NCBI GenBank assembly: GCA_951799445.1
Contig: OX637295.1
Span: forward strand, 372,001 to 436,000
Length of the DNA stretch: 64,000 nt
Direction: 5' to 3'
DNA from: Pseudisothecium myosuroides
Taxonomy: Eukaryota > Streptophyta > Bryopsida > Hypnales > Lembophyllaceae
A program made the position numbers and the translations under genes. Within the stretch, counting starts at the first letter, position 1; the number at the start of each line of letters is the position of its first letter. Under the pieces are notes generated by a model that saw only the letters and a program-made list of their open reading frames with translations, ran no database searches and was not told the DNA's origin. Positions 32,996-63,779 of the stretch are shown one piece after another.

Positions 32996-33212
32996 CACTA
33001 TAAGAAACCCACATTTTAAGTGACAAGCCCTAATTTTTCTTGACGGATTTTAGTGGACATCCAATGCAACCAACCCATGTTTTAATGTCAAAATTGATGT
33101 TACATTGGACGTTTTTGTTGACACAAAACATGGGTTTGTTGCATTGATTGTCCACTAAAATCCGTCAAGAAAAATCAGGGCTTGTCACCTAAAACGCGGG
33201 TTTCTTATAGTG
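32996..33212. mobile_element. CACTA-type foldback MITE, 217 bp, TSD TCT
   Basis: CACTATAAGAAACCC begins the element and its complement GGGTTTCTTATAGTG ends it. TCT flanks both ends (32993-32995, 33213-33215). Almost the whole length is self-complementary, so a transcript would fold into a long hairpin. It sits just after TATA-like box 2 of the host LTR. Confidence 0.9.
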
Positions 33213-34239
33213 TCTGCGGAGGAGACTGGGAGTCTTTTCATCTGAATCTTCTTGCGTATTTTATTTGTTTCCTGTTGTACATCTTTCCCGAGTTTGGCAG
33301 AGTTGTATGGTGAGGAGTTAGGAGGGCATAAGTGGTTTTGGGAGTGATTTCTCCCCTTGGTGTTACTGTTTTGTTCTTATGTACAAGTGAGTGGGTAGTG
33401 AAAGAGTTGGGAGTGGGTTTTCAGTTCCTCAGCACTTCTACAGTTCAGGATTCCAGGTGAGAAAGCCGTTGTTAGGCTAGGCGGATAGGGAGGGATTCCT
33501 TAGTCGCGCTAGACTTCTTGGGTGGAAAATCCGGTTGAGTGTCCGATCTCCTGTGAGGTCTCGCTGCCCTAGTTGGTAAACGAAAGAACTTTAGATGATG
33601 TTGGAATGGACGGGTTCACTTGTAACCGCCTAACTTTGCAAGGAGGGAACTTGGCGTCAAGGTCGTTGTAGTATGAGAGGATCGTACGGGGGTTCTTTGT
33701 GTGACCTGCAATCCGGATTGCTATCCGGGTGGTTGTGAGAGATCAAACCGGATCCGAGTTAGTGTAGGAAGTAGCAGAATAGCGGAGTGGGTCTTCAGCC
33801 ACTATAAGTCACGGAAGGAGTGGCGGGCCTGCCACTTTCAAAAGCAAGCGGCGAACTCTCTGATGGTGAAACAGAGGCTAAATCAAACCGGATTGGAGTA
33901 AGAGTACGTGAAAGAGGACCGGAACGGATTGGTCCAAAGAAGTACCGGGATCGGAAGTAAGAAGATCCTGGATTGTGGTAGTTTTACAGGATCGGATCAT
34001 TGGACGGACTGGAAGAGATAGAGAGAGGTCTGGTCGTAGTTTTCTGTGTTTTGGTGTTTCCGGTTTTAGAAGTAGGACCGGAAAGTGAAATTTGAATACT
34101 GACTGAGCTTAAGTTTGAAATAGAACTAGACACTTCATAGAATCTCGTAGGTTCGATCTTTAGAGTCATTTTGTTATGCTTTAGAGTGATTTTTGGGAGT
34201 ATAACAAGGAATTTACTTACTATGTGCTGCGACAAAATT

Positions 34240-36419: not shown

Positions 36420-39400
36420 TGTGAGCCCTCAAGTTAGCACTTGGAGCTCTGGGTTTATTTTTCGCGATTTATTGTTAGTTTTTAGTATAAATTCATGCAA
36501 AATAGTATGAATTAGTAGTTGAGAGGAGTTTGGTAGAAGTCCCTACCAGATTAGTGAGGGATTGTCCTAAAATCATGGAAAGCACAAAATACTTTGCTTT
36601 TCTATGTTTAGATCTTAGTTTAGTGTCTTAGAGTCCATATTTACGTGTTAGAGAGATGTGAGGATGTGAGAATTAGCCAGTTCTAGTGTCCATGTAAAAC
36701 TCAACATGTGAGCACATGTGACAGCCTGACTAAATCATAAGAGTCTATGTTCAAGTTTAGAAGTGTCTAGATCCAATTCATGTGGAATTTGGGCTAGTTA
36801 TGTGAAAACCTGCAAATGTTGAAGAGTACAAACCAGAATGCAAAGTAGAAGGAGGGCGAGGTGATTGAAGCTTATAAAAAGGTGCTTTTAGGGTAAAAGC
36901 ATGCCAAGAGATCAACAGAGGAGCTAATCATCCACGACAAACCCTGGTACCAGATTAATTTTCCCCTCGGGCGGAAATTATTAAGGAACTGCTAAAATTA
37001 GCAACCTTATTGGAGGTTTGGTTTTGCTCTTAGCTTTTAGACACTTCCTAGAAGATTGCCCAAAAGTTTCGGGATTTTACAAAACTCCACGATGACTCCA
37101 TGAGAAGTCAACCGCTTTTGAAACTGATAGTAATTTCCTAGAAATTGCCCAGAGTGCGGTAAAATCTCACTAAAAATTAGATTAAAGTTTTATATATTAA
37201 ATAAGTGACCAGTTAAGTTTGAAGACTTTTCGATAATCAGAAGTACCAAAATCGACAACGACATCGAATTTAACAAGAATTTACAACATGGCGGCGGGTT
37301 GACCGACGAACCAGGAACTGGCGGTGTCCGAATGTCGCAAACAAGGAATGTTTTTTTACTCTCGCGAACCTTCCAGGCAACCCAAGCTGATCAATTTTCT
37401 CGGGAAATTCAAATTCCATTAGTTGGGATTTTGACTTTTCTTTGAAGTTACCATTAGTGGTTTATACGAGTATTTACAGCCTGGAAGTGGGGGGTACGGG
37501 GTCCGCTGAACTCATTGGGGTCTTCTGAATGCGATGGCGCAATTGATTTTCAATTTGGAGTTGTTTACAAGAAGATAGGAAGGGTTCAGCCGTAACGTTG
37601 ATTTTTTTAGAGTAATTAGCGGTAATTCAAAGTTATTTCACAAAATATCTTGGTTAAAGTCGAAGATTGGATTTAGTAAAGATTTCAAATCTTTTTTGTA
37701 ATAGCCAATTTAGATTAAATTAAGAATATTTGGAAATATCCTAGGATTAATTGCGAAATATCTCAAGGTCAAAATAGTTAATTTCCTAAATATCTTTGGG
37801 AAAAATCTTAGATTTTATTTGGACAAGATTTCCTTTCTAATTAAGGCTTGTTCTAGAAAATTCTAAAGATTAAACAAAGATTATTTAAGAAATATCTTAG
37901 GGTAGTTTAGGATTTAACGTAGGGTAGTTTTTGAGTAAAAGACCAAATATCTCATGGTAAACTAAGGTGGCGGGGCCTTCTAGCGAGTATATAAGGTCCC
38001 CCTCCGAAGTTTCTCATACCCCATTTTGTTCATTATTTGCCTACCGACACTTTGTCGGAGTACAGACACTCTTTCTTTGTTCCATTTGCTTACCGGCTTT
38101 GTCAGAAGCAATTAAGCTAGACCAAATTTTGGTCATCTTTGCTCATTTTTGTTTTTCTTTGCTTCCTTTGGTGGAGGATTTGGTAAAGGATTCGGGGTTT
38201 CCTTTCCACCTTCACAACCACACTAAGTTCACACTTTTGGGAGGTTTCATCCCCCAACACTTGCATACCTTGTTCACATACTAATTTCGTGTTTTTTGCA
38301 ACAGCCATTAAGCTAGAATTCTTAAAGCGGTGAAGCTAGTCTTTACCAAAAGATTCTAACATTCAAAACACCGGCCAAACTTCGTTGTATAACAAAGTTT
38401 GGTTTGACTTGATCTCTAATTTTTGGTTTAAACACTTTCATGTGTACCTCAAGTAGGAATTAAAACCATCTGATATCTTGGGAATCATTTTAATCCTTAA
38501 TGTTCGGTTTAAACACTTTCATGTGTACCTCCTTTAAGAATTAAAACCTCCCTACAGCTACTTGGAACCATTTTGACAAGTTTAGCCTGGGGTTGCTCCC
38601 ACACGGAGAAGCTTTAACCTTAAAACAATTTACCTTAAAGGGAGAAAGTTTGGGAAAAAACCTTGGTCGTTGGGCTACTTAAGCCAAAACATCACATCAA
38701 GTGGTCCCTTTTCTTCCGCCATACTTTGCTCAACTTTGCTTTGTTTCGCTTCCATTGCCAGATTGCAAATTTTGTGACAGTTTATCCTTGCCTTAGTTTA
38801 GTTTATCTTTGTTTTAGAATAGCTCACTCGATTAGTATATCCCAAAAAACCCAAAATATCGCTTAGATTAGTTGTTGCTTAGTGAAGTTTCCCAAAAATC
38901 ATCATTTAGTTTAGTTTGTTTTGCTAGTTATCCCAAAAATCCCAAAAATCATCATTTAGTTTAGTTATTTGCTTTGTTATCCTAAAAACCTCATAAGTTA
39001 GTTTAGCTTGTTTTGCTAGTTATCTCCAAAACCCAAAAAATCATCATTTAGTTTAGTTATAGTTCATTTTAACCCCTATCCAGTTAGTTTAATTTTAGTT
39101 CTTGTTAGTTTTCCAGGACCAGTTTACAAAAGCCAAACCAGAACCAGTGTACAAAAGCCAGAATTGAGAACCAGTTTACAAAAGCCGAACCAAAACATTT
39201 TACAAAAGCCAGAACCAGAACAGTTTACAAAAGCCAAACCAGACCAGCATCCATATTGGAAAGGGAAGGGGAGACAGGACAGCGCCACATAGCAAGGGGG
39301 AACGAGGGTTTGGAGGTCGCTGGGTTTGAAGGTCGCTGGGTTTGGAGGTTGCTGGGTTTGGGAGGTCGCTGGGCTTGGGAAGGTCACTGGGCTTGGGAAG

Positions 39401-44085: not shown

Positions 44086-47000
44086 TGTCGCAGCACAGAG
44101 TAAGTGAATTCCCTGTTATACTCCCAAAAACCACTCTAAAGCATAACAAAATGACTCTAAAGATCGAACCCACGAGATTCTGTGAAGTGTCTAGCTCTAT
44201 TCCCAACTTAAGTTCAGCCAGTATCCAATTTCTACTTTCCGATCCTAGATCTAAAACCGGAAACAACAACACACCGAAAACAACGGCCAGACCTCTCTCT
44301 ATCTCTTCCGGCCTGTCAAGCTATTCGGTCTTGTAAAACTTCCACAACCCAGGATCCTACAACTTCCGATCCTGGAACTCCTCTGGACCGATCCGATCCT
44401 GTCCTCTCATACAAACTCTCACTCCACTCCGGTTTAATTTTGTCTCTGTTTCACCATCAAAGGGTTTGCCGCTTGCTTTTGAGAGTGGCAGGCCCGCCAC
44501 TCCTTTCGTGACTTATAGTGGCTGAAGACGCACTTCTCTAATCCACTACTTCCTACACTAGCTCGGATCCGGTTTGATCTCTCACAACCACCCGGATAGC
44601 GATCCGGTTTGCAGGTCACACAAAGATCCCCCCGTACGATCCTCTCATATTACAACGACCTTGATGCCAAGTTCCCTCCGTGCAAAGTTAGGTGGTTACA
44701 AGTGAACTCGTCCGTTCCAACATCAACTAAAGTTCTTCCGTTTACCAACTAGGGCAGCGAGACCTCACGGGAGATCGGACACTCAACCGGATTTCCTATC
44801 CAGGAGTTCTAGTGCAACTAAGGACTCCTTCCCTATCCGCCTAGCCTAACAACGGCTTTCTCGCCCGGAATCGTGAACTGTAGAGGTGCTGAGGAACTGA
44901 AATCCACTCCCAACACTTAGAATACCCACTCACATGCACATAAGAGCAAAACAACAATACCAAGGGGAGAAATCTCTCTAGAATCTGCATACATCTTCCT
45001 AACTCCTCACCAAACAATCCTGCCACGCGCGGGAGAGATGTAAAACAAGAAGTCAATAGAAAACACACAAAAACTCAAGAGAAAAGACTCCCAGTCTCCT
45101 CCGCAGAGACTGACTAATATACATTTTAAAATTCAAAGTCAACAAAAAGGGCCGTAGAAAGTCCGCGCGGAACTTTCAGTCCCTGCCGAGCCGGTCAGAC
45201 CGGAGAACATCCGATCCTAACCAGACAGACCAGGTCAAATCCGGTCCGGTCCATCCTAACAAATATTTACAAAACTAATTTCTATCTATTATATCACAAC
45301 CGGATCTACTCCTTGATCCGTTCCTTTGTCCATAACTTGGTCCACACCTTGGTCCACGCTCTGATCTAGACCTTGGTCCGCACCCTCATCTGGGGTCAGA
45401 TCCATACTTTGATCCTGTCCCGGGTTCAGTGTGGGACTCCTGGGCGTTTCCGTTCCAAGCTGTTCGAAGACGTCCGTCAGATTCCGGTTCCGCTCCCCGG
45501 TTTCACGATCTGGGAGATCCAGTGACGAATCTAAGTTGATGGTGTTCGCGAGCTTCCTCCCACTCTTCTTTGACTGGGGAGTCCGATCCTTTCCTTCCGT
45601 CTGAATGCCTACGTTCAGAAAAGACCCGGGCATCGAAAGGTCGGACAGATGGAACGACCTTGACAACGTCACTCCGTTCAGCTTTCGACTGCTCTCCTCC
45701 ATCCGATTTGCTGCTTCTCGTGCTTCCACCATCACCAATTCTACCTTCTCGGAGTAGTCCGTCAAGATCCGGACCAACTTGGTTCCGGATATCTTCTTGT
45801 CCTTGAGTACTCCCTCGTCAAACAGCTTTGACTTGGTGACGGCCTCTCCGGTTGCCCCAAAAGTGGCCTTCACGTCCTCAGCTACTTTCCGGGTAGCCTC
45901 CGCCATCTCCCGAGTGGTGGCCATGTCCTCCTAGAGGAGTAAAAGTTGTGTCTTCAACGACTCATTCTCCTCTTGGAGTCGTCGATTCTCCGCTTGGAGT
46001 CATCGATTCTCCGCTTCTTGTTTCCAGATCTCATCCGGGCTGGAGATGTACTCTGCAACCACTCCCGCGAGGTTGCTATCCGCTGGTGCTCCCACCAGCT
46101 CACTGATCTGGGTCAGAACCAGCTTCTTCACCGCCCAGTCTGCTCGCACATCGCTCAAGATGTTGATCAGCTGGTTGAACGGATCCGTCGGGTCCGATCC
46201 GGAAGGACCCGGTCCTTCAAAAACCGGTTTCTTCCCAGGATTGGATGTCTCACCCGGAGGGGTTGGGGTTCCTCTCCGGTGAGAAGGCGTCGTCTTTTGC
46301 CGCTTGTTCTGCGGCCGGTGTTGCTCCTCCTCTTCTTCTTCTTCATCGGAACCGGATACTTCCTCCTGCTCTTCCTCCGATTCCGATTCCCCATACTTCA
46401 GGAGTGTCTCCTGAGTCTTCCACTCCTTCTCCTTCGTATCCGTGAGGAGCTGGTTATGCTTGTAAAGATGGAAGATGTAGGGACTCAACAGTGTCGGCCT
46501 ACTTCCTCCGATCTTTGGAACCAGACAGCTGACTAGATCGGAAAAGATCCTGGCCCAGTCCACTTTCCGTTCCCCGCTCAGGGCTCCGAAAATCAGGTTC
46601 CCGATGGCTATTGTCACCCTCGTCGGCTTCTCCGGGTGGATGATCGGAACCAGGAACTGCAAAAGATTGCGATGCCGGTCGTCCAAACAATCCGCGACTG
46701 CATGCCCATCCTTCGAGTCCACCGTGCTCCGGAACTTCCCCCGAGTGTATCCTTCCTTCGAGGTGGCCATCCCTCGACCTCCTGACCGGAAGTCGTACAC
46801 GGACCTCCACATCTCTTCCGTCCAACTGCTCGAAATTCCGCGGATGGTCTTATCGAACTGATTCGAGAGTTTTCTCAACAGCTCTCGAATCATCCGTTCC
46901 TCTCTAAACCCCCAGGGTTTATCTATCAGTCCTCCGCAACCCATTCTGGCAAGATCCTCTATGAGGTTGTCCTTTTCCTTCTCTTTTGCTGGAATAATCG

Positions 47001-47587
47001 GACACACCTTCCGGAGTTTAACTTCTACTGCGGAGGAACTGGACGGTCCTGTTCTACTCTTGCGGAGCTGAGGCATGGACACGAGCTGTGCTAACCGGAT
47101 TCTCACTGAGGCTACCTTTCTCTCTCCTAGCTGCACGTCTCGTTTCTCACCTTCGCTCTTCCGATCTCAACCGGAATACCTCTAAACCTGCAACACACAC
47201 TAAAGCGCTGTGCGCTCTAACACACTAACACGCACACACAAACTCACACAACAAGAAAGCAAAGCGCTGGGAGGAAAGCTAAGTACAAGCTGGAGAGCGA
47301 TTTCCGCAAACGAAGTTTGAAAAAGAGTGGCAACTGGATTGGTCAGCCTATTTATAGTCTGATCTGTCATCATGACCAAATCCGTTCCTGACCCAATCCG
47401 TTCCAACTCAGATCCGCTCCAACTCTAATCCGGTTTAGATTGAGATCGAATCTGGATTATCACCTATTCCGTTCCGTAGTTAATTTCCGGTTTTTCGTTA
47501 CCTCTTGCTCAATTCCGGATACCAAATCACGGTTTCCGTTCCAAGATTTAGATAACTTACAAAAAACCAAAAATTCACACTACAACA
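44086..47587 (-). mobile_element. Solo LTR of family 1 (copy C), TSD GCGTG
   Basis: In the minus direction it begins TGTTGT (one or two substitutions from TGTCGC) and ends GCGACA. GCGTG is present at 44081-44085 and 47588-47592. Length is 3502 bp with no large insertion, and no internal element sequence is adjacent. It is the cleanest copy of the LTR-internal ORF. Confidence 0.92.
45289..47076 (-). pseudogene. LTR-internal ORF, copy C (596 codons, two stops)
   Basis: From ATG at 47076 (MPQLRKSRTGPSSSS) the frame is open to about 46000. It meets a TGA within the coiled-coil start (CGA expected from a neighbouring repeat unit) and a TAG near 45930, then stays open to TAA at 45289-45291. A 24 bp duplication (LQAENRR-type unit) lengthens the coiled coil relative to copy A. 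It confirms that the TAGs at 19700, 20225 and 20879 in copy A correspond to Gln, Trp and Gln codons. Function is unknown. Confidence 0.78.
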
Positions 47588-48045: not shown

Positions 48046-49123
48046 AACTTTGTGAGCACTTGTTTACCCACCCTTGGTAAAGAAGCGAGCACAACCAGGC
48101 TCTCGGTAAATAACCGTTCTGACTCGATCTATGGGTGTCTAGCGCCAATCCATTGTGCCTTCCAAGCAATGGATCTTTTCTATGCTCTTAAGACTCGCTA
48201 ATTCGGATAATGAAGAAAACAAAACAAAACAAAACCCTAATTGAAATTGTTGTAACTGCTAAGTCTGAATTCAAGCCCCAAAGGGCTTGGTGGTTTGGGA
48301 GAAGAGTTAATCTTAGTCTAAACTTATCTATCCTAAATGGAAGAGTACCTCATGCCATTTCTAAAAGTATAAAGCTTGTTTGATTTGGACTCTCCTAGAG
48401 AGAGTTATGGACGAATGAAGTTTGACCGCTACTCGGTCCCTCAAACTTCATCCATGCTTTTCTATGGACTCCAGATTTCGATTTGACTTGGGATTTGGGC
48501 TATGAGCCTGACCCCCTAATGTTAACCTAATTACCAAGTCTTGACTCAAATGGATGAAATCTTCTAGGGTTCATCCATTACTTGTTCCAAACTTCATCCC
48601 TTTTTAACTGCTTGGGGTTTAGGTATTTCCTTAAGCTAGGTTTAGTTTTGGGTTACCCTAAACTTGTTCTAAGATGTTCTAAATCTATACTTAACCTAAC
48701 CTTAATTTTAAAAGCCCCTAATCCGCCTTCTAATCTTACTTAAGGATTTTAAGTGTGGTTACCAATGTACTAATCGTAGAACTTAAGACTTGTTCCGAGA
48801 AGATCTTGATTTTAGCTTTCTACTTTGACTAATCACATTAGATTTGAGTTTTCCTATCAAAAGTTATCCATGGATGAAGTTTGACCGCTAATCGGTCCTT
48901 CAAACTTCATCCACTAATTATGGCTAGCCCTAATTTCAACACTAAATTCTAATTTAACTTTCGGTTTCTAAATTAATCCCTCTTTTTATATTAGCTTTCT
49001 TGTTCCTCTTGGATGAAATTTGTTAAGTTTCATCCGACATGACTCCCTAACTTCATCCGCTTACAACTTCTTCGTTTTGGCTCGGATTTGGATGAATGAG
49101 GACTTTTTGGAATCCCGTGAACC

Positions 49124-49565
49124 TCATTAGAGAAAATCTGGGGCCTCCGGAGGGCTGCTCCACAGCCCTCCGAAGAACCCTGAAATTTACTTTTTTTTTG
49201 CAAAAAAATCAATTTTTCCCCTATTTCCGCGCAGCAGTTTCTGCTGCGACAGTGGCGCAGGAAACGAATATACGAGTAAAAAAAAAAAAAAAAAAAATTT
49301 TTTTTTTTTTTTTTTTTAAGTCTTAAGAAAATATTTAAAAATTAAAAATTAAAAAATTCCGATTTCGGTGAGCAGTCAACTGGCGAGCAGTCAGCTGGCG
49401 AGCAGTCAGCTGGCGAGCAGTCAGCTGGCGAGCAGTCAGCTGGCGAGTAGTCAGCTTGGCTGACTGCTCACTGAGGGCCAGTTCTGCAGTGACAGGCCAA
49501 GCATTTTAATAGCTTGGCATGTCACTACGGAGCAGCCCTCCAAAGAGCTGATTTTTTCTCTAATG
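49124..49565. mobile_element. Foldback MITE-like insertion, 442 bp
   Basis: The insertion is absent from the paralogous LTR at 56905-61408. Its ends are inverted repeats: CATTAGAGAAAATC...GGAGGGCTGCTCC at the left and GGAGCAGCCCTCC...GATTTTTTCTCTAATG at the right. The interior holds A20T20 (49278-49317) and a 15 bp tandem array. The target duplication is unclear. Confidence 0.7.
49368..49473. repeat. 15 bp tandem array with inverted tail
   Basis: About six copies of GAGCAGTCAGCTGGC, followed by TGACTGCTCACTG, which is complementary to the unit. The array can form nested hairpins. It is located inside the foldback insertion. Confidence 0.8.
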
Positions 49566-50997
49566 TCTAGTTTCTTCCTCCTAACCTAAATCTAACCTGA
49601 CCCATGGTCTATGCTACTCTAGCTCTCGGCATCGTTTTGATTACCTTAATTAAAACAAATTTAAACAAAGAAGAGTGGGTTTTTAGGGGCCCACCTCATA
49701 TTGGATGTCCTGGATCAAACGGTCGAGGTTCCCCCCCTCGGCCATGTCCCTTCCTCTTGGATTCTTGGCTCCTTGAGTGATTCTTGAATCGGAGAAGATT
49801 TTAGAACGGAGTGGTAGATGCGGCGGGATTTCTTTCTTCGCCTTCTTTACGCCCCTTCTTACACCAACCGACTTATCTTCCAAAGTTCTTACACGTTGAC
49901 TTCGTTCTTACACTTCTTACACCTAGGTCTTCCCAAGTGCTTACGCGTTGACTTTTCTCTTACACCCTAAGGGCACGCTCTTTGTTACTCTTACGCTCAC
50001 CCTTTCAGTGGTCCAAATTTGTTAGTTGAGATTTCCTCCAATCCATCCACTAGCACGCTCTCTCCTATTTCATCTTCCTCCTTGCTTGTGATGCTCAAGG
50101 TTTTTGGTTATGGTGTGTGGAGAGCTTGGGTGAGTTGTACGTGGAGTGATTGTGTGAGCTTTTGCAAGTGTTGTGTGTTTTAATGACAATTCCTACTACA
50201 ATGTGTACCCCCGAATCTACTTTCCTAACTTTCCTCCTTTTACTTTGAGAATATCTCTAGTTCTACTCTGAGAATATCTCTACTTCTACTATCCTATTTT
50301 CCCACTTGCACTATCCTAATTTCCTATTCCTACTATCCTAATTTCCTATTTAGTCTACCCCCTTTTTTCCCATTTTTTCTTCCTAAAAAGGAGAATCAAA
50401 AGGAAGTCCAAAAAAAAAACACCACCACGAATTGGCCTGGAGGCGCGGCCTGAGCCCTTGTGACTGCTCCCGTGGGCTGCCGGGTATCGGGCTGGGGTAT
50501 CGATTGGAGATCGGTTGACTGCTCCCATAGGCTGCTAGGGTATCGGGCCGGATATCGGTTTGACTGCTCCCGCTGGGCTGCTGGAGTATCGGTTGACTGC
50601 TCCCGCTGGGCTGCTGGGGTATCGGTTGACTGCTTCCGATGGGCTACTGGCTCCCGATGGACTGGCTGGGGCTGGCTCGGAGTCCTTTTTTTTTGTTCTT
50701 CCTTCGATGTTTTTTTTGAATTTTTTGTAAGTGCCGAAAAAATGACCGAGGCCACTTTAACCAAGGGAAAACCTTCAAAGTTTAGTTCCCAAGCAAGTTA
50801 GTGCTTCAAACAAAGAACTTCAACTGACAAGTTAGTGACCAAAGTGACACAAAAATAAGCCAAATAATACCCAAGAATACTCAAAACTCATAGACACAAA
50901 GGAAGAAGGACCCCCAAGACCTTCAAAAGCTGAAAATAGAACAACAACGGAGCACCACGTGCTCAAAATACCGTGGAAGTGCCTCTGGCTAAAATCA

Positions 50998-52427
50998 GGG
51001 TTGCTAGCGTGTGAGCCTGTAAGCGTGAGCCTGTGAGCCCGTGAGCTTGTGAGCGGGAATTTTTTTTAAGAAAAAAATTGATGATGGACCTATAACCGTG
51101 GGTGTAAGTAATTTTCATTTTTCAGAAAAGCGACTTTATTTTCCTAAAACTTTAGTCACTTCCAACCATTTTATTGAAACTCGGGGGGGTCACTTAGAGT
51201 GTCCATTAGAAAATACGTGCGAACAAAACTTTGGACCTCCTATATTATATCCTAAAATTTAAATAAAATGAAATAAAAAAAATATGACTAGATTTTCCTA
51301 CTTCAAAAGTTTATGTTTTGAATTATTGATATTTTTATTTGTTAATGATAATTAGTTACAAATTTTTGAAGTAATTAGATACACTGTACAACTAAAAAAT
51401 AACTTTCACACCCCTATATTATATCCTAAAAAATTGTCTAAAAAATGAACAAAAAATTCCTAAAAATAGCTCTCTATTGAAAGTTCATTTTGAGTTGAGT
51501 ATTGATGCAATGGTCATCTAAATGTGATCTCTATAAATATTTGAGTTGAAAAACATGCCGTTTTAGGCCATTTTCAACCTCTTGTACAAATCATTTCAAC
51601 TATTATTTTAGTTTGAAATTTTGGCAATAGAAACCTATAGTCATTATTAAGCAACCCTCAAAATTTTAAGTTGAAATTATAGTTCATTAGAAACCACTTG
51701 TTCGCACGTGGTTTGTAGTAAAATACTAGGTGCCCTCCCCGAGTATTGAAATCTTCATTGCAACAACTAATTGGACATCACTAGAATTAAATGTCTAAGA
51801 ATTTATTCCAAAAAATACATCTTCAATTTTTTTTTTCTAGTATGAATAAACAATTAAAATCAAAAAGACATTGGCCATTTTAAAGGACTTTGTAATAAAT
51901 GATTTGACAAGAAATTGAAGCCAGCACCACTTCTAATTTTTAGAAGTGGTTTAGGGTTTCCTATTTGTATAAATGGAGAGGATATTAAATAATGTATTTT
52001 TACATACCCCGTGTAAGGAACATGTCCACCTGCTACAGACTTTGACCATAGAAATTTAAGTTCAAGGGTTATAAAATCATTTTCTCAAAACTATAAGAAA
52101 CTCTTACACCCGAGAATGTGAGAGATTAACAAAATTAGCTTTCAAATACATTATGATCTTCTAAAATTCTTGAAAATAAAAGATACAAAATTGAAATAAA
52201 AAATTCTACAAACTGGTTCTCTGGTTACGATTTAGGATTAAAAATTTATAACATTGAATAGAACTAAGATTTCCAAAACACTACAATATGATTATTCATA
52301 TGAACAATCCAAAAGTGCATAGAAAACAAACTGACACACAATATGTAGCCATAAAACACACAAGTCAAATCATAATAGAAGTCAATACATAGTAGTTTGA
52401 TTCATGAGATATGTCAATCTCATGAGT
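50998..52427. other. AT-rich spacer between truncated LTR and next gene
   Basis: A short GTGAGC-rich repeat lies at 51009-51057, followed by AT-rich DNA with no supportable gene. The right end should hold the 3' UTR of the minus-strand gene ending at 52428. Confidence 0.45.
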
Positions 52428-54875
52428 CTAAGTGACGGTGGACTCGGTCGCAGAATCCTGCGTCGTAGACGACTCAGAAGTCTCTCCACCCTCGGATGCT
52501 GACTTATCTATAAATTCTAAAACATTTAGAGCGTATTTATCTTTACAGGGTCTGGGTTGAGAGCAACCAAACTCCACAAACGCTGATGCTATCTGCTCGG
52601 CGTACACGGGAAGATCAAAAGACTTCTCTGGACTCAACACAAGATTCTGTCTCTTCCTCGATGCATGTGCATCCTTCACTTCTTCACGTCTGAAAATACA
52701 AATAAAGAATGTCAGACTCATACAATTCAAAAAGTATCATGCACAAAAATAATTTCAAAAATTTTGAAACTTACTTACTAGTTCTATCCTTCCGAATAAA
52801 CTTCCGAGGCACCACGATCATGGCATTGGGATCTTGTGAAGATTTAAGTGTCGGAGGCGCTTTTGTGACTTTAGCTATTGCCACGGCCGGAATGATTTTC
52901 TTCATGGGTAGAAGGATGGCATCAAAAATGGCTTTGTCCGCCTCCAAAGCCACAATGTGACGTCCGGTGCCACGACAGGCTTTAATGGATGCTCCTGCAA
53001 TAATGAATATGAAATTCATTAGTTCAATTTTTTATTACATGTATTAGAATTTGAATGCACAATTATTGAATTCAAATCTTACCCGTAGATGCTGTGCAAT
53101 CCAAAACCAAATCCCCTTCCTCAGTCGTCCCTTCTATGAAGAATTGCAAGAACCTAGCATCCTTTTCGCGAGCCCCACGCCACGGCATGAAAGTCGCTTC
53201 ATTCATCAATTGGGTGTCCTCGTTGGTGTAATTCATATAAATGTCATCCTTTTGAAGGTCCACTTTTGCCTTCGCCATTGCCTTTGACTGATGGTATTGG
53301 AACCTTGCTTTCCCTTTCTTGGTAATATCCTTCACCAAGACGGTGATTCCAAACTTCAATGTCTGCAAGCATAGGAAACAACGGACGTCAGAACTAATAA
53401 CATTAGAACAAATGCCAAATGTTAACCATCTCATATATATTTAAGAAAACTTTACCGTGCTTTTAGGGTGGAAGGGTGACGTCAAGTGCATTCGGTTCAT
53501 GCCCAACCAATCTTCTTTTTCTACCAATGTTGGATACAATAAACACAATCCTGCAATGTCGCTCTTTGAAGCGCCACAGCGTGAATGAAACACAATTAAA
53601 CAGCCATGGTCCTGCAAGTGCTTCTCTGCAAAGAGAAACACATTATGCAAGGCCTCACATTCCTTGTCCAAATTCCACGCAGGTATTGCTTCCATTGGAT
53701 ATGAGATCTCTAAAACGGGCAAGTTCTCAGGGCAATCGAAGAGAATGAGATCCACTCCCGGATGGCTGTTCACTACACCGTCATAAGTGTGAGGCTTCCC
53801 CACCGCCATTTGCAACCATACAATTCTCCAATCGGTTAGACATTGCCAAGAACTTTAATCACATCATTCAATAATACTATCCATTTCAAAATTGTAAATA
53901 ACAAATGATTACCTTCGTTAAGAAGTCCATCATCTCGGTGTAGCAATTTGGCCCATCTTCTTCTATTTTATCTTGGACATCAATAATGGAGACATTTAGA
54001 ATCAAGTCCTCGGAGGTGACGTCATCATCATCACCAAGGCATATTACTTGAGTGCCTTGTGTGATCACGTCCTCCGTTAGCTCTGGAAGTACTGCCTTCT
54101 TCTTCATTCCACTTCGAGCTCCGCCTTGCATCTGGGAACTCTGGTCAACAGTAGAAGAAGCTGGAACTTGGCCACTAACTTCAATTTTCTTCTTGCCTTT
54201 GCCTCTCCCCTTCCCCTCCTTCTCCGCCGCTTTCTCCTTCTCCGCCAACTTCACCAAGCGCTCCGCTTCCTTTTTCTCTTTATTAGCCCGATTTTCTTGT
54301 TCTTTGATTTCTTTCTTCTTGTCAGCAACCGACCTCCTCACAATGGCCCTCTTCTTCTGTGTGTCATTCAGCTTAGCGAACTCGGGAACATCCAAGTTAA
54401 GAACACCAAGCCCCTCCAATGATTTATGAAGCGCTTTTTCGGATGGATGAGTGAATGTTTGTGGACAATCAAGGTACCACCCTCCAGCGGAAAGATGCGC
54501 TATTGTGAAGGTCTTCAGTTGGATAGAGGTATACATGCAGTCGTCGGAACTCCGGTCAAGCCATGTGGACAAAAATGGAGGAAGATCCTCTCGAGCAATG
54601 GCTCTCTTTGGTAGAAGCTCAAGCTTGAAATAACTGCAAACAAAATAAGAGAATTCATTAGTAAAAACATCGCAATGAATGAAACCAAGATAAATAGACT
54701 TTAACATTGCTAGAAATGATGACACATTAGATACAAATGAATCAAACATTCTATGGAATAATTACATAAATTAGATCAGAAGCTTTGATCTAGAAGTCAT
54801 TATTGTGGAAAAAAATTTGGACAAAGAAACATAAATTCAATACCAAACCAAAAGTAAGGGTACCATGAGGTAGTC

Positions 54876-54909
54876 AAAATACCCCCGTCGGATCCGACGG
54901 GGGTATTTT
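54876..54909. repeat. 34 bp perfect palindrome in intron
   Basis: AAAATACCCCCGTCGGA is followed directly by its exact reverse complement. It lies in the intron 54634-55042 of the ParB/methyltransferase-like gene. 'ggtac' and 'gtacc' also occur on its two sides, so a small element is possible. Confidence 0.85.
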
Positions 54910-57900
54910 CAGTACCTCTCAGTACCCCCACTTTTCTAATTTTAAATGGAAATCACCAAAAGAAACTAGCAACTTGAAATTCCATAAGCAATGCCTTCTA
55001 ATGAATTAAGCAAGTAAACATTGCTACACATTGCTTACGTACCGAAAAATGACTCTTTGAACGGCCTCGTCCGATCCCTCCCAGTTCAAAAAGGAGTCGC
55101 TCTTCTTGAAAAAATTTTGTCCCCTCAAATATGGACCAAATGCTTGATCCCAAATTCTAGTCCGCCACCCTTCGATGTACTCTGGCAGATACTCCGGTTC
55201 AAGTGGGGTGGCCATATTGATTGTCAAATTATCTTTCTTCACCACATTGTCAAAATACTCTGTAGCAGCGTCCTCAAGCTGTATCAAGGCCACATTATTT
55301 CAATTCTTACCAGTTGAAAGGCCAATGGACATAAAACTTGAGAAATCCTACACATATAAAAGTGAATTACAAGATTTTCAACACATATAAAGTGATCTAC
55401 AAAACCACATACATAACAACTTACCCCCGCCCACCAAACGCACTTGTTGAGAAAGGTTCCCAACTTATCTTCAACAACAGGCTTCACTGGAAATTGCCTA
55501 GCATCTTGGGAGGGTGTTGAGGAATTCCACCACTTCAAGAACTTTGTTTTGTGCAATGCTGTTGTGTTACATGTTGCAATCAATTGCAATTTTTCCAACG
55601 TCATCTCAGCAACTTTGTTGGTTGAATATTGCTTCTCAACCTGCAAAATGAGGTCATATTATGTTATTACCAAACACAACATGTACACAATTACAAACAA
55701 AAGTGTTATATGACTTCAAAACAAAATGCACCTCTTCGAGAAATCCAGGACCAAATGCCGGATTCGCAACAGCCAAGAACTTCCCCGTCTTTGTATACAA
55801 TTTTGCAACCTGAGCTTGTGCAGCAACCCTCATGGCGTTCGCTACCCCTTCCTCATCTTTTTTCTCGAATTCGGTCGTGTCATTGTACTTTCGTACTGCA
55901 GCATCAGCTGCTTGGGATATCTCTTGCTGCATAGGCCAAAGAAAATTTAAATTCTGAACTTGTACACGCAAAGAAGCCAACAATGGAGTATGATCAATTC
56001 AAATGGCAAATATTCAAGATCTTCCATGAACTCAGATTCTCACCCTGAAAAGAAATGCCGTGAAAACCTCTTGGGGCAAGGAGTACCAAGCCTTTCTTGT
56101 TTGCATAGGACCACATTGTTTTCTTTTCGAAGGTCTCAACATTTCTTCAAAACGCTCATACGGTAGCAGTCCATATTTTTGCACCCGGTACAAAGTGTAT
56201 ACCAAATTGGTCTTCACGTGAGAGTCCTCCGTGGATCTGCACATCAAAAAATCATGAGTTCAATGACTTCCACAATGTAAAAAGATTAGATTACATCAAG
56301 TTCTAATTAAAAATATATAAGAAAAGAAGGACAATCTCATGCCACAAAAAAACTCACTTGTTAATGTCGTGCATTGTTTACATGACAAGCTCAATTCTGC
56401 CCTTCGTATCCAAAACGATGCAATCAACTGCATTGTGAAACCTTGGATCTTCTGAATACTTCCTGTCAATGAGGTTCATCCACGCCACTCGATGGTGGTT
56501 TCCGTCGCACACATAGAACTTTACGTTCCTCATGAACTTCAACTCCGGCACCGACTCCACCTGCTCATTGAACTCATCATTCAACTTCTTCCACAATTAA
56601 CCCCAACCGTTGATTTCATTCGCCGTGAATTCGGAACTTTCACCCGCTTCGTTTGTGGTAGAAACATAGAAGACCGCAGCTCCTTCTTGATACCCATGAG
56701 CAAATTCGTTCTCCAGTTTCTTAAGATCAGAAGATAATGTGGGCCTCACCATTGGCATTGTCACTAATCTTATTAGTGGAATACGCAATCGTGAGTGCTT
56801 CTCCGGCTTAATCCTCAAATTGGCGATGGTGGCAACGGGGTGGATGCATGGTTGAGTGGACCAAAGGTGGCGGAAGTCCATATCCATAGAACTTAATATA
56901 AGGCTGTGAGCTCCCAATTCGTCACTTGGGACTCATAGTCTTTTTTTTTCTTAGATGGTGCAATTTATATCGTAATTATACCCAAAAAGCCCTAAAAAGA
57001 GTGTAAAACCAGAATGGACATGTTACATAACAATATGCCCTTTGGTCCTAAATAGCCTTTTCTCCTTAAAATAGTCCTAAAACCCACTTGTAAATAGGTT
57101 GGAGCCATAGAAGTAGTGGGAACTAGAAGGTTTGAGGGTTCTTACCCAAAATAGCCTAAAATCACTATGCAAGTGACCAAGCTGGGCTAAATTGGTCTGA
57201 GGGAAGTCTAGGGAGATTCTTAGGTAGATTCCCCAAGAGAGGTTTCAGTTTTCCCATCCCATCGACGAATAGTAGAAACCCCAATTGTTAGCTTGCAGGT
57301 GTCACTTTCGCAAGACAGGCCAGTGGAGGAATCTACGGTCACCGGATTGTGATCTTGGATCTAAACCATACCGGGAAGTCAAAAGCGAAATCCATTCGCC
57401 AAGATTCCCCCGTATGCGGAAGATTCCCTGACTGTCGGTAAACCAACGGAGGTATCTTTTTGCCCTCCGTATCAAGACATGCAAGATCAAGATGTGAACT
57501 TGCAAATCTCTTGGGAAACCCCATGAGAGGTTCCCCAAGAAGTTTTGGAATTTTCTGGATTGAAGAAATACTCCTTCCGGACGGTCAACCGCCTAAAACC
57601 ACAATGGGAAATTCACGATAATTACCCAGGTAGCGGTAAAATCTCACTAAAAATTGGGATAGTTTTTTTATGCTAATAACGTGCCCCGACGAGTTTCGTG
57701 GTGTTTCGATAGCGGGAGACGGCCGAATCACCGACATTCCTTCGAATTATCCACGTGGCGGGATTTACGTGGAGTTGACCGGCGTCCCGGGAGCACACGA
57801 AGTCGGAACGAAGTCGACGAAGGGTCTTTTCTTACTCCCTAAGACCTCCTAGACCACCCTGGCTAGTCACCTTTGTCAGAAAAGGTAACCTCCAAAAAGT

Positions 57901-59108
57901 AGATTTTTACCTCTTTTACTAACTCTAGTTGGCGATAGCTTACGGTGGGATTTTGGCGTTGGAATAGGGGATTGGAGGACCTCAGGACTAAAAATGGCCT
58001 TTTGAAGCCAATGGCGCAATTGGTTTTCGATTTGGAGTTAATCTCCAATAGTTAGAGTGTTGGACCAGCGTAAAACCCAAACTACGTGAAAATCCTAAAA
58101 GATAAGGATGAAAATCCAAGTTGATAGGGTTACCTAGGTTAAAAGAGGGGAGGTGAGGGCCTTAGGAAACCTATAAAAGGGCCCTCATTTCTCTCCAAAA
58201 CCACCCCCATTCATGTTTTGGGTCCGTGGGTTCAACTTATGTTGGATTTTTTGGCGATTTTAGCCAAAGGCACTTCCACGGTGTTTTGAGCACGTGGTGC
58301 TCCGTTGTTGTTCTATTTTCAGCTTTTGAAGGTCTTGGGGGTCCTTCTTCCTTTGTGTCTATGAGTTTTGAGTAGTCTTGGATATTATTTGGCTTATTTT
58401 TGAGTCACTTTGGTCACTAACTTGTCAGTTGAAGTACTTTGCTTGAAGCACTAACTTGCTTGGGAGTTCCTTGAAGTTTTGTCCTGATCCTAAAGCTCCC
58501 CCCGCAGCGCCTTGGCTTTGCCGCCTACTGGGGGTCTTTAGTGTTTAAGAATTGTGTTTTCTAACCCGCGTGTCTAGATTAACCTCCGAGTGTTTCTCTC
58601 CCAGTCGGGGAACTCTTTTGCTTTCTCTAAGAACCCTTGGCATGTGGTCCTCCCCCCCGTACGGTGGAGTTGTGGGCCCCCCAGGGTGGTTATGTCTTAA
58701 CGGTTTTCTTCCTCTTTTGAAATCGTTTGTGGTCACGTGAGTCCCCCTTGTTGACGGCGAAGCTTTGACTATTAACCCCCCTAGTCCTAGAGTGCGTGTT
58801 AAAAACCCGCCATACGGCGAAGCTTTGAACCTACGGGCAAGGAGAAATCCTAGAGTTGGTGTTAAACCCAACTCGACGGCGAAGCCTTGATCTCCCCAGA
58901 GAACTCGGTTCAAAGTTTAGTTTCCAAGAGGTTCTTGGAAACCTTCAAAGTTTAGCATCCAAGAACTTAGGAAAACGTTATAGGCAAAAGTCCATGTAGA
59001 ACTAGGATTAGTTTTGGCTTTCCCTTGGTTTAAGTGGCCTCGGTCATTATTTTGGCAGTTACCAAAAGTTCAGAAAAAACGTCCGGAAGAAGGAAAAAAA
59101 CCGCGGGC

Positions 59109-59385
59109 CGAGCCAGCCCAACAAGAGCCAGCCCCAGCAAGAGCCAGCCCAAGCAGGAGCCAACCCAAGCGGGAGCCTGCCCAAGCGGAGCCAGCCCAAG
59201 CAGGAGCAGCCCAAGAAGGAGCAGCCCAAGCGGAGCAGCCCAAGCAGAGGAGCCGGTACCCGCAGCCCAGTACCCGTAGCCCGATATCCGCGCCGGTACC
59301 CGAGCCCGTACCCGTACCCGCAGCCCGTACCCGCGCCCGATACCCACGCCCGATACCCACGCCCGATACTTGCGCCCGGTCCCGT
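59109..59385. repeat. GC-rich minisatellite in family 2 LTR
   Basis: There are two sub-arrays: 'agcccaagcaggagc' type units (59109-59250) and 'cccgtacccg' / 'cgcccgatacccacgcccgatac' type units (59265-59385). They give Pro/Ala-rich open frames that look like chance coding. The matching part of the copy at 50440-50700 has a different repeat pattern. Confidence 0.65.
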
Positions 59386-59487
59386 GCTTGCAGCTGCGCC
59401 TCCAGGCAACGCCTCCGGCCAGTTCGTGTTGGTTTTTTTTTGGTTCCTTTTGATTCTCCTTTTTAGGAAGACTAAAGGGGGAAAGGA

Positions 59488-59615
59488 GGGGTAGAATAAA
59501 TGGGAAATTAGGGTGGTAGAAGTAGGAAAGAAAAGGGGTAGAATAAATGGGAAATTAGGGTGGTAGAAGTAGGAAAGAAAAGGGGTAGGATGAATGGGAA
59601 ATTAGGATAGTAGAA
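59488..59615. repeat. 47 bp tandem repeat, about 2.5 copies
   Basis: The unit 'gggtagaataaatgggaaattagg.tggtagaagtaggaaagaaaa' is repeated. A degenerate counterpart lies at 50280-50350 in the inverted copy. Confidence 0.75.
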
Positions 59616-61631
59616 GTGGAAAGCTAGGGTGGTAGAAGTGGAGATATCTTCCAAGTAGAAGGAGGAAAAGTAAGGAAAAAGACTTGGGGGGTACACCTTG
59701 TAGTAGGAATTATCATAAAAAATACACAAAACCTTGCAAAAGCTCACACGATCACTCCACGCACAGCTCACCCAAGCTCTCCACACACCATAACCAAAAA
59801 CTTTGAGCATCACAAGCAAGGAGGGAGATGAAATAGGAGAGAGGCATGCTAGTGGATGGATTAGGAAAATCTCAACTAACAAATTTGGACCACTAAAGGA
59901 GTGAGCATAAGAGTAAAAAAGAACGTGCCCTTAGGGTATAAGAGAAAGGTCAACCACATAAGCACTTGGGAAGGCCAAAGTGTAAGAGGTGTAAGGGCAA
60001 AGTCAACGGGTAAAGAACTTTGGAAGACAAAGTCGGTTGGTGTAAGAAGGGGTGGAAAGAAGAAGGAGAAAGAAATTCCACCGCATCTACCACTTCGTCC
60101 CAAAATCTTCTCCAATCCAAGAATCACTCAAGGAGCCAAGAATCCAAGAAGGAGGGACATGGCCGAGGGGGGGAACCTTGACCGGTTGATCCAAGACCTC
60201 CAATATGAGGTGGGCCCCTAAACACCCCACTCTTCCGTGTTTAATTTTGTTTTATCAAGATCACTAGAAGGAGACCGAGAGCTAGGGTAGGCAAGAAGCA
60301 AAGTCAGGTTAGAATTAACTTTAAAATCTTATAGTAGAGGGCTAGGGGTTTCCGAAAACCTAAAACACGTCCAGATCCGAGCTAAAACGAAGGAGTTATG
60401 AGCGGATGAAGTTAGGGGGTAATGTTGGATGAAACCTAACAAATTTCATCCAAGAGGAACAAAAAAGCTAACATAAAAAGAGGAATTAATTTAGGAACCG
60501 AAAGTCAAATTAGAATTTAGTTTTGGAATTAGGGCTAGCCGTAATTAGCGGATGAAGTTTGAAGGACCGATTAGCGGTCAAACTTCATCCATGGATAACT
60601 TTTGATAGGAAAACCCAAATCTAATGTGATTAGTCAAAGTAGAAAGCTAAAATCAAGATCTCCTCGGAACAAGTCTTAAGTTCTACGATTAGTACATTGG
60701 TAACCACACTTAAAATCCTTAAGTGAGATTAGAAGGCGGATTAGGGGCTTTTAAGATTAAGGTTAGGTTAAGTATAGATTTAGAACATCTTAGAACAAGT
60801 TTAGGGTGAACCAAAACTAAACCCAGCTTAAGGAAAGACCTAAATCCAAAGCAGTTAGGGAAGGATGAAGTTCGGGGCAAGTAATGGATGAACCCTAGAA
60901 GATTTCATCCAAATTGAGTCAAGACTTGGTAATTAGGTTAACATTAGGGGGTTAAGCCCATAGCCCAAATCCCAAGTCAAATCGAAATCAGTAGTCTGTA
61001 AAAAAGCATGGATGAAGTTTGAGGGACCGAGTAGCGGTCAACCTTCATCCGTCCATAACTTCCTCTAGGAGAGTCCAAATTGAACAAGCTTTATACTTTT
61101 AGAAATGGCATAAGGTACTCTTTCATTTAGAATAGATAAGTTTAGATTAGAACTCACTCCTCTCCCAAACCACTAAGCCTTCGCAGGCTTTGATCCAAAC
61201 TTAGTAGTCACAGCAATTCCAATTAGGGTTTTGTTTTGTTTTCTTCATTTTCCAAATTAGCGAGTCTTAGGAGTATAGAAAAGATCCATTGCTTGGAAGG
61301 CACAATGGATTGGCGCTAGACACCCATAGATCGAGTCAAAACCATTGTTTAACCGAGAGCCTGGTTGTGCTCGCTTCTTTACCAAGGGTAGGTAAACAAG
61401 CACTCACAAAGGCTGACCCGCAGTATGACGTGGCAGAATATGGCTTTGTGATTGGGTGAGATTAAAGTGCGTCAGAGAAATCAGCCCATTCAGAGCTGGC
61501 TTGGCGGCTTCAGTGCCCGCTAGTTGAACTGGCCATAAAGTAGTTAATGGGCCGCGTGGTTGGAAATCTGACCCGTCCATTTTGAAGTTATCGCATCCGA
61601 CGATGATCGGAGCTGCTGCTGACGCCGACAT

Positions 61632-61777
61632 TGGGGGCTTCGTTCCCGTCTGTCCGTCATGCTCCTTCTCTGTCTGTCCCCGAAGCTGGCCCGCGTGCCC
61701 TGCGTGACAAGTTTAGGACTCGAGTGTTTTTGTTAGCAACGATTTAGGAAAATCGTAAGTCGTATTTTACGGAAACA
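61632..61777. promoter_or_regulatory. 146 bp shared upstream region of divergent genes
   Basis: Only 146 bp separate the ATG of the minus-strand ParB/methyltransferase-like gene (61631) from the ATG of the plus-strand gene (61778). Any promoters must overlap each other or the 5' UTRs, which suggests a bidirectional promoter. No clear TATA box is seen for either side. Confidence 0.5.
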
Positions 61778-63256
61778 ATGAGTGATACAGAGGTCTTCGA
61801 GGAAGAGCAGGAGTCTCCGTTGGGGAAGGTTTCGCGATCAGTTAGGAAGAAGGTCAAGGTTGAAGGAGCAGCTTGGGTCGACCCTTTGTACGCAGAACAA
61901 CCCACAATTACGTGGGACAAGTTGACACCATTGAAGCGGGGGTATTTTGCAGAGGCTTTTGGTTTGTGTAATGAGGGTTTGGCTCCAAAGCGGCTCAAAT
62001 ACGGGATTCATTTGCTAGAATCAGACGTAGAGGCATTGTTTGGAGCGAAGGTCAATTCCAGCGGTTACGCTTACTCGTCGTTGGAAGATACCAGCTTTGT
62101 GGAGAAGGTGGAAAAAATATGGATGCTTACCCACCAACGCACAAGTGTTCCAAACACACGGCTGATCAATGTTGCTAAAGCTAAAGGTTTGGCATATGAG
62201 TTATTGCCGAACAAGAAGACAAATTGGTGTCTTCATGCTGAGTGGACCTGCCGCGACCAGCTGCGAAGATTTAACCTGGAGCGCGATGAGAGAAAAAAAT
62301 GTGTTTTGACTGCTGGTTGCAAGAAGGAGGGTGCGGTGGATGTCATCGACGTTGGGGTCGAAGGTGTCGAAGCACAGCCGAGTAGGAGCGCACAAGTGAC
62401 TGATAGCGGATTAGGGCTAGAGGGGAAATCAGGTGAGCACACGATGTCTATAGTGGAATGGCAGGAAGCGCTGTCTTTGTTGAACAAGGAGTTCCCAATG
62501 TTGGAGGGACTCGTCAAGCATCGTTGCGAAGAAAAGGACGCAGCAAAAATTGAACTTGTGAAATTGGCTACTCAATATGAGTATGGGCGATCTCTGCTTG
62601 CCACTGCTGATTTGCGGCTGCAGACATTGGAGGGTGAATGCTCCCTAGAAGACGAGAAGCTGACCACATTGAGGGCAGAATTACCAGAAAATGAAGCTGA
62701 GATTGGGGCTGCGGATTCTAGGGTGGCAGATTTGAGATGCCAAGTCCAGGCACAGAGAGGGGTTATGGATCATATGCGGGTGATGTTTGGTTCTGGAGAA
62801 ACTGGATTTGAGGACGCTGCAAAGAAGACTGCAGTAGCTGAAGAAGCGTATGGCAGCGTGGCATCAAAGCAAGAACTTTGGGGGCGTCATAGGACTGTAC
62901 TGATGGCGCAGTTGAGGGGCATGAAGGCTGGATACCAACGCCCAGGCTGTTTCCCAGTGCCCTTGCCTTTTTTTTATCTTTCTTGTGAGGAGGATGTGGG
63001 GGAAACAGTGATTGTGGAGATAGCTCCTTGCCCGTTTTGTTGTAAAGGATTTGATCCAATGTGGGACTGCAAGTTTGCAAGTTGCCAGCATGCTTATCAC
63101 TCGTGGTGTGCGGTTTCTCATTTTTCAAGTTCCACAAGCTGTATGTTTCACGGTTGTGGCAAGGAAATGCACAAAGACTGGTGGATGATGTCTGGTATCA
63201 AGAAGCCGGATGGTGATAATGCAAAGGGGTTACAACATGAAGGGTGGAACCATTAG
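61778..63256 (+). CDS. Coiled-coil protein with C-terminal RING-H2-like zinc domain
   Basis: A 492-residue protein encoded in one uninterrupted exon. The ATG at 61778 is the first in frame, and the N-terminus is acidic (MSDTEVFEEEQE) then basic (RSVRKKVKVEG). The first half (to about residue 200) is globular with no motif I recognise. Residues about 225-370 are heptad-rich and likely coiled coil (LEGECSLEDEKLTTLRAELP). At 418-460 is a Cys/His cluster, CPFC...ASCQHAYHSWC...CMFHGC, with spacing C-x2-C...C-x-H-x2-H-x2-C...C-x4-C, close to RING-H2 except for the last pair. RING-H2 domains usually act in ubiquitin ligases, so a role in protein turnover or as a zinc scaffold is possible. It lies head-to-head with the ParB/methyltransferase-like gene. 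Unlike that neighbour it has no stop or frameshift, so it may be expressed. No family name is claimed. Confidence 0.75.
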   Translation: MSDTEVFEEEQESPLGKVSRSVRKKVKVEGAAWVDPLYAEQPTITWDKLTPLKRGYFAEAFGLCNEGLAPKRLKYGIHLLESDVEALFGAKVNSSGYAYSSLEDTSFVEKVEKIWMLTHQRTSVPNTRLINVAKAKGLAYELLPNKKTNWCLHAEWTCRDQLRRFNLERDERKKCVLTAGCKKEGAVDVIDVGVEGVEAQPSRSAQVTDSGLGLEGKSGEHTMSIVEWQEALSLLNKEFPMLEGLVKHRCEEKDAAKIELVKLATQYEYGRSLLATADLRLQTLEGECSLEDEKLTTLRAELPENEAEIGAADSRVADLRCQVQAQRGVMDHMRVMFGSGETGFEDAAKKTAVAEEAYGSVASKQELWGRHRTVLMAQLRGMKAGYQRPGCFPVPLPFFYLSCEEDVGETVIVEIAPCPFCCKGFDPMWDCKFASCQHAYHSWCAVSHFSSSTSCMFHGCGKEMHKDWWMMSGIKKPDGDNAKGLQHEGWNH

Positions 63257-63779
63257 CCTAATGATCTTGGCACAGATTTAGGAGGTGAGTTCACAGTTTG
63301 TATCTTCCTGCATTGATCTAGGAGAACAGATTCAAGTTAGGGTTTTGACCTTTGTCACATCTACACTTGTTTTGCTAGTTTAGAGTTCTGTCAATCCACC
63401 AAAGTCTGCTTTTGAATTGGGAACAATGTTACAAGTCTTCAAGTCACAGAGTTAGTAACGTCCATTGATTTGGTATTCTGTGAATTGAAGCTCTATGGAC
63501 TTGGGCTTGCACAGTAGGTATATTTCGGCCATGGATCACAAGAATGTACTTTGGGCTTTCAAGTAGTTCATTTGTACTTTCGAAGGAGTCAGTCGGTGGC
63601 AAAGAGAGTGGCAAAGACTACACAGGTGTTCTTGAATGAAAACAAGGGCTGTGCATATCGGAGAGCCTGCTAGTTATACAGTGTATCAAGGAGTTCATTT
63701 AAATGGAATGAGTCTGCTTGGGGTGTCTTACAATTGTTACTTCAGGGACTTTTTACTCTGGATGGGGTTATAGTGTATA
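63257..63779. other. 3' flank of the RING-H2-like gene
   Basis: Probable 3' UTR and intergenic sequence. No further ORF, repeat or element end is supportable before the LTR-like start at 63780. Confidence 0.5.

Follow-up and report, generated by a model that had tools for sequence, protein, structure and literature searches.

Probable remains of two head-to-head genes in a moss genome, one of them encoding a protein with a methyltransferase-like C-terminal domain

The stretch of DNA analysed here (hereafter referred to as the window) covers 64,000 nucleotides of contig OX637295.1 from the moss Pseudisothecium myosuroides, and all coordinates are positions within it. Two genes facing away from each other lie towards its right end: a gene with many exons on the minus strand, the product of which has a methyltransferase-like C-terminal domain, and an open reading frame (ORF) on the plus strand predicted to encode a coiled-coil protein with a RING-like cysteine/histidine pattern. 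An insertion resembling a solo long terminal repeat (LTR) separates them. The term “spliced protein” refers to the translation of the joined exon model of the minus strand. The features of the locus are as follows.

56358-56887, minus strand: exon 1; first in-frame ATG at 56887; holds the ParB-like motif CDGNHHR and two in-frame TAA codons
56044-56236, minus strand: exon 2; AG/GT sites, phase fits
55732-55926, minus strand: exon 3; splice sites and frame
55425-55640, minus strand: exon 4; splice sites and frame
55043-55278, minus strand: exon 5; splice sites, frame and codon usage
53913-54633, minus strand: exon 6; lysine-rich charged region
53456-53809, minus strand: exon 7; encodes motif IV (DCPENLPV) within the first half of the methyltransferase-like domain; acceptor TTGCAA
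53083-53362, minus strand: exon 8; motif X region and beginning of motif I (VLDCTASTG)
52775-52994, minus strand: exon 9; remainder of motif I, then GRHIVALEADKAIFDAI
52428-52689, minus strand: exon 10; includes the stop codon
56905-61408, plus strand: solo-LTR-like insertion of 4,504 bp; ends TGTGAG...CTCACA; AAGGC at 56900-56904 and 61409-61413
48048-50996, minus strand: second, inverted copy of the repeat family of the insertion; pieces of 80-97% identity; outer end not located
61404-61631, minus strand: first exon proposed earlier; coding status unsupported
61778-63256, plus strand: RING-like coiled-coil ORF of 492 amino acids; stop at 63254-63256
63284-63289, plus strand: possible splice donor GTGAGT just past that stop, suggested by the residues of relatives

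The minus-strand gene (56887-52428) comprises 10 exons, defined by splice sites and reading frames, which join in phase into 1,068 codons and a final stop, bearing out the claim of an earlier note that a multi-exon gene ends at 52428. The introns are 85-409 nt long, with GT donors at all nine sites and AG acceptors at eight of the nine. In a codon usage analysis of an earlier model in which exon 5 extended further upstream, the in-frame reading was the best of the six frames in 8/10 exons. Two results weigh against the model: another frame outscored the in-frame reading in exons 7 and 9, and a search with the spliced protein (residues 1-1000 of 1,104; 7,993 candidates scored) yielded no relative of the entire chain. 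The evidence for the exon chain outside exons 7-8 therefore consists of splice sites, reading frame and codon usage. An exon 5 start at 55347 would introduce an apparent third stop codon (TGA); this stop was discarded, because a start at 55278 avoids it in good phase. The intron between exons 5 and 6 contains an 86-bp imperfect palindrome (54850-54935), consisting of two 43-nt arms, 84% complementary, with no loop.

The earlier note had described methyltransferase-like motifs IV and I at the C-terminus of this protein. Profile searches with the spliced minus-strand product agreed with this description: exons 7-9 joined together matched DNA methyltransferases of the PHROG collection (phrog_3008, E 1.4e-7; phrog_18293, E 1.8e-7; phrog_6952, E 3.2e-7) and a type II methyltransferase of PADLOC (E 5.4e-7). 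The match to the NCBIfam CcrM profile had an E-value of 4.9e-4, and the Pfam family N6_N4_Mtase (PF01555) gave a domain E-value of 1.7e-4 and 22.0 bits, below its curated cut-off of 26.7. These matches are carried mainly by the cofactor half of the domain. A comparison by hhalign with a mycobacteriophage methyltransferase gave a probability of 91% across motifs X-I, and a tblastn search returned 283 phage records at E-values up to 1 (lowest E-value among the 20 matches listed, 2e-3). A seven-row profile matched the chain of DpnA (PDB 5hek) with an E-value of 0.012, and this alignment paired DcpeNLpv with DPPYNISV first and VLDCTASTG with VLDPFMGSG second, which is the permuted order. Cofactor motif I and the neighbouring strand are thus present in the DpnA and hhalign alignments and within the PHROG coverage, and the order of motif IV followed by X/I is that seen with DpnA.

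Several observations count against this relationship. For the whole protein the N6_N4_Mtase match is weaker (E 0.0029, 18 bits against the same cut-off); exons 6, 7 and 8, when scanned singly, matched no Pfam family; the two pieces aligned with DpnA are weak on their own (independent E-values of 240 and 1.2); and the profile contains a row, P0021, with a faulty alignment over motif IV. Taken with the profile matches, the sequence comparisons nonetheless support a relationship of the C-terminal domain, within an intron-bearing gene, to the bacterial and phage amino-methyltransferases.

Six relatives of the C-terminal domain were identified among 61 candidates, the closest with 84% identity, and five of them cover exon 7. 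Pattern scans with exon 7 found no relative in viral contigs or prokaryote genomes. The consensus for motif IV is (D/N/S)PP(Y/F/W) (PMC8885841). The catalytic motif of the family departs from it: the window and the five relatives covering exon 7 all read DCPENLPV, with DCPE at the catalytic positions (6/6 sequences). The sixth relative covers motifs X-I and reads DLVLDCTASTG. Ordinary catalysis by the domain is doubtful, because the replacement of the consensus is identical in all six sequences. The DCPE form of the motif also favours a non-standard activity: the family may be capable of poor or unusual methylation, or may serve as a cofactor- or DNA-binding module, either being more likely than a standard writer of N4-methylcytosine (4mC) or N6-methyladenine (6mA).

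With DpnA and CcrM (PF01555), the window gene shares the placement of the motif IV half ahead of the X-I cofactor half, and the cofactor half is clearly similar. It differs from DpnA in motif I (DCTASTG rather than DPFMGSG) as well as in the DCPE of motif IV, and from both enzymes in being split by introns and in having 697 residues ahead of the domain, a region for which the whole-protein scan gave no Pfam match at E-values up to 1. The product of the minus-strand gene would once have been about 1,070 residues long, with a C-terminus akin to the permuted S-adenosylmethionine-dependent amino-methyltransferases, in which, as in the bacterial and phage enzymes, the catalytic half comes first and the cofactor half second. 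Any intact relatives would be expected to bind S-adenosylmethionine through their C-terminal half.

The copy in the window carries several lesions. Exon 1 contains in-frame TAA codons at 56597-56599 and 56378-56380, the only internal stops in the 1,068 codons. The stretch around the first of these scores as coding (z 3.41 in frame, -0.90 to 0.73 in the other frames), and a 189-nt intron over this TAA, the likeliest pair of sites by eye, was set aside for this reason. The acceptor of exon 7 is TTGCAA, the other eight acceptors ending in AG. In four of the five relatives the residues LQ directly precede those of exon 7, as a TGCAG acceptor would be translated, and the fifth relative starts at its own methionine; the acceptor has thus probably been lost, as judged from the translated relatives. 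An apparent frameshift at the start of exon 7 was, after comparison with the relatives, better read as intron sequence ahead of the changed acceptor. Both TAA codons and the acceptor change could be explained by C-to-T or G-to-A changes.

Two points speak for a less damaged gene. The first TAA could be spliced out by any of 88 in-frame GT-AG pairs, 16 of which start like a donor, and the Q preceding exon 7 in the relatives could equally be encoded by CAA. We nevertheless consider the window copy very probably to be a pseudogene, because it combines two in-frame TAA codons, a probably lost acceptor and a 4,504-bp insertion 17 bp upstream of the first ATG; together, these changes very probably ended the production of a working protein from this copy.

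The lesions bear directly on the proposal of the earlier note that this locus encodes a functioning, domesticated 4mC/6mA DNA methyltransferase with a RING-like partner. Homology to the methyltransferase fold is in its favour, as are the precedents of 4mC methyltransferases acquired by bdelloid rotifers and Marchantia, described in two reports (PMC8885841, PMC12344493). Set against the two stops and the changed acceptor of the window copy, and the altered catalytic motif in all six sequences covering motif IV, these arguments leave a functioning enzyme very improbable.

The insertion at 56905-61408 lies between exon 1 and the RING-like gene. With its TG...CA ends and the 5-bp target duplication AAGGC, it resembles a solo LTR. 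We estimate the chance expectation for such TG, CA and 5-bp matches in the search space at about 0.5. A chance origin of these boundaries is far less likely, because homology with the inverted copy at 48048-50996, which stops within 3 bp of the right end of the insertion, fixes that end, and because the 6-bp termini match. The search for the ends of this second copy returned a single TG/CA pair (51653-48075), which was disregarded, its ends being unlike those of the insertion, and TGTGAG was not found at the outer side of the copy. Two pieces of the insertion, of 36 and 44 bp (57620-58039), match 37143-37562 at equal spacing, perhaps as a further fragment of the same family.

The earlier note had placed the first exon of the minus-strand gene beyond the insertion, at 61631-61404. 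This ORF has a codon score of z 1.79; all three reverse-strand frames of that stretch score higher, and 32% of 624 frames taken from two other regions of the window, assumed to be mostly non-coding, score at least as high. The ORF abuts the insertion, which separates it from the next exon. In the reconstructed empty site, the ORF runs through the joint without a stop, though in a frame other than that of exon 1. With no coding signal above background, and with the insertion in between, this exon is not supported. The 146-bp gap between the two genes, taken as a shared promoter, is unsupported in turn, because it depends on this exon. Once the insertion and one target duplication are removed, the ATG at 56887 and that at 61778 are 381 bp apart.

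The protein encoded by the plus-strand ORF has at least 15 relatives, with 35-88% identity, among the 7,998 candidates with most shared words that were scored; pattern scans of viral contigs found no relative. The pattern C-x2-C-x14-C-x-[HC]-x2-H-x2-C is present in 11 of the 16 sequences of the family, the other five ending before or within it, and the first six RING ligands fit in 10 of the 11 sequences with this region (P0012 has C in place of the first H). The consensus for RING-H2 proteins is C-x2-C ... C-x-H-x2-H-x2-C ... C-x2-C. The family shares the core of this consensus, C-x2-C and C-x-H-x2-H-x2-C, but differs from it in that the last cysteine pair is C-x4-C, rather than C-x2-C, in all 11 sequences, and in its weak profile scores. 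The Pfam family zf-RING_2 matched only 7 of the 16 members at E-values up to 0.1 (best 0.0021), with an E-value of 0.7 for the window protein itself, and the best RING chain in PDB found by profile had an E-value of 0.3. In the predicted structure (pLDDT 64.2, pTM 0.32), a long helical stretch connects an N-terminal region, modelled with moderate confidence, to a small domain at the C-terminus. A Foldseek search with this model gave 926 matches at E-values up to 10 and none at ≤0.001, and coiled-coil and helical chains lead the best 50 of the 926. The departure from the consensus, the profile scores and the Foldseek result all argue against a RING assignment.

All 10 relatives that extend as far as the stop codon of this ORF continue beyond it, several of them up to residues that would fit a GT donor. 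Given the GTGAGT at 63284-63289, the ORF is probably a shortened first exon. The “intact RING-H2-like protein” of the earlier note is thus upheld as regards the long ORF and a RING-H2-like Cys/His pattern, but the early stop makes “intact” doubtful. The product may combine an extended coiled coil with a zinc site of RING-like type, and it could plausibly act as an E3-ligase-like scaffold.

The N-terminal part of the minus-strand protein contains the motif CDGNHHR, from which the earlier note had proposed a ParB-methyltransferase fusion. Its best family match was DUF6551, with E-values of 0.0057, 0.036 and 0.019 in three differently cut versions of the sequence, none reaching the cut-off, and this match disappeared in the scan of the whole spliced protein. 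No family named ParB was matched in Pfam, PHROGs or NCBIfam (E-values up to 10) or in PADLOC (E-values up to 1), although the HMMER filters discard most matches above an E-value of about 0.1. The N-terminal part had no match among PDB sequences and one match, with an E-value of 10, among phage records; its single-sequence fold is an uninformative model (mean pLDDT 35.1). The phage enzyme Amgine gp37, a candidate ParB fusion, had no ParB family match itself and so is no guide on this point. The proposed fusion retains the motif and the methyltransferase-like C-terminus, but not a match to any ParB family, and the ParB label is without support beyond a lead given by CDGNHHR.

Fusions of a ParB-CTPase fold with an N6N4-methyltransferase are enriched in phages, and Srx is the most common eukaryotic representative, according to PMC12704722. 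Like the phage fusions described there, the window gene may have a ParB-like motif N-terminal to a domain resembling amino-methyltransferases; it differs in the lack of a ParB family match. No plant ParB-methyltransferase gene was described in the literature searched, a statement that extends no further than that literature, and the word “ParB” was absent from the available part of a fern genome paper (PMC9477723).

We consider it likely that the locus holds the remains of two head-to-head genes, one of which encoded a product with a methyltransferase-like C-terminus and is very probably dead in the window copy. A working two-gene unit at this locus, as proposed earlier, is not supported, given the state of this copy and the dependence of the 146-bp shared promoter on an unsupported exon. 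It is quite possible, if short of an even chance, that two unrelated genes stand head to head here by coincidence and form no unit: co-occurrence is undemonstrated, the relatives being known as proteins without genomic context, and the 146-bp gap has lost its support. The spacing of 381 bp between the two ATGs in the empty site speaks against coincidence, as does the similar closeness of the nearest relatives (88% for the RING-like protein, 84% for the methyltransferase-like domain), to which little weight can be given because their sources differ (lgn and jgi).

Two further features lie outside the gene pair.

51378-51394, plus strand: left arm (17 bp) of an inverted repeat, GATACACTGTACAACTA
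63671-63687, minus strand: right arm (17 bp) of the inverted repeat, GATACACTGTATAACTA

This 17-bp inverted repeat, GATACACTGTAYAACTA, flanks both genes with 16/17 positions matched, a score reached by 1 of 100 shuffles. It can be read as the ends CACTG...CAGTG, with the outer two bases TA on either side, and would then delimit a DNA transposon with short CACTG-type ends that carried both genes and made their families multicopy. The many diverged relatives of the RING-like protein and the several transposon remains in the neighbourhood would also fit such a mobile module. The repeat was, however, found after looking rather than predicted beforehand, and the TA belongs to the palindrome, so it is a weak indication; the regions near the ends share 12 7-mers, fewer than the shuffle mean of 27, which lends no subterminal support; and neither gene matches a transposase family. 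The repeat is thus a hint of mobility, not a proof, and we regard a mobile module as improbable. Still less probable is the bolder proposal that a family of permuted methyltransferase-like proteins of eukaryotes, with the fixed DCPENLPV change and with genes standing head to head with a RING-like coiled-coil gene, is spread by an undescribed kind of DNA transposon and employs the methyltransferase fold to recognise or mark DNA in a new way.

Elsewhere in the window, there are long repeats at 18765-22249, 28236-34234 and 44086-47587, each measuring some 3.5 kb or upwards. Two are in direct orientation and bracket ORFs for gag and reverse transcriptase, and the other is inverted; a Ty3-type element whose LTRs are very long, together with a solo copy, is their probable identity. 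The repeats include ORFs, defined from stop to stop, of 371 codons (28448-29563) and 388 codons (46000-47166), which matched no Pfam family at E-values up to 0.001. On the minus strand, matches to DUF4216 (17685-18155, E 1.3e-6) and the transposase Tnp2 (26526-27404, E 3.4e-6), both slightly below their cut-offs, are perhaps what is left of a CACTA-type transposon. Also on the minus strand, at 3242-4113, two ORFs that overlap in different frames both match DUF7869 (E 2e-22 and 1.2e-11) and may represent a frameshifted or spliced copy. A comparison with Rfam gave no match at gathering scores. The Ty3-type, Tnp2, DUF4216 and DUF7869 matches fit a transposon-rich eukaryotic genome.

Having set out these alternatives, we return to the likely reading of the locus as the remains of two head-to-head genes, and to the methyltransferase-like member of the pair. 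Bacterial amino-methyltransferases acquired by eukaryotes are reported to include 4mC enzymes in bdelloid rotifers and Marchantia and 6mA enzymes in early branching fungi (PMC8885841, PMC12344493). The bdelloid N4CMT, a permuted amino-methyltransferase of bacterial origin in a eukaryote, has SPPY and a chromodomain according to PMC8885841, whereas the window gene has DCPE and no Pfam chromodomain match. The Marchantia 4mC methyltransferase is likewise a bacterial-type amino-methyltransferase in a plant. Unlike the window gene, it is described as having no additional N- or C-terminal domains.

The interest of the locus therefore lies in an unusual methyltransferase-like family, rather than in a working two-gene unit, and the window copy, as a decayed member, is useful mainly as a pointer to its relatives. 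The sequences compared give good support for a family of methyltransferase-like proteins in which an unusual form of motif IV is conserved. Such a diverged family, with a conserved change in its catalytic motif, raises the question of whether the fold has been reused without its chemistry, or with a different chemistry.

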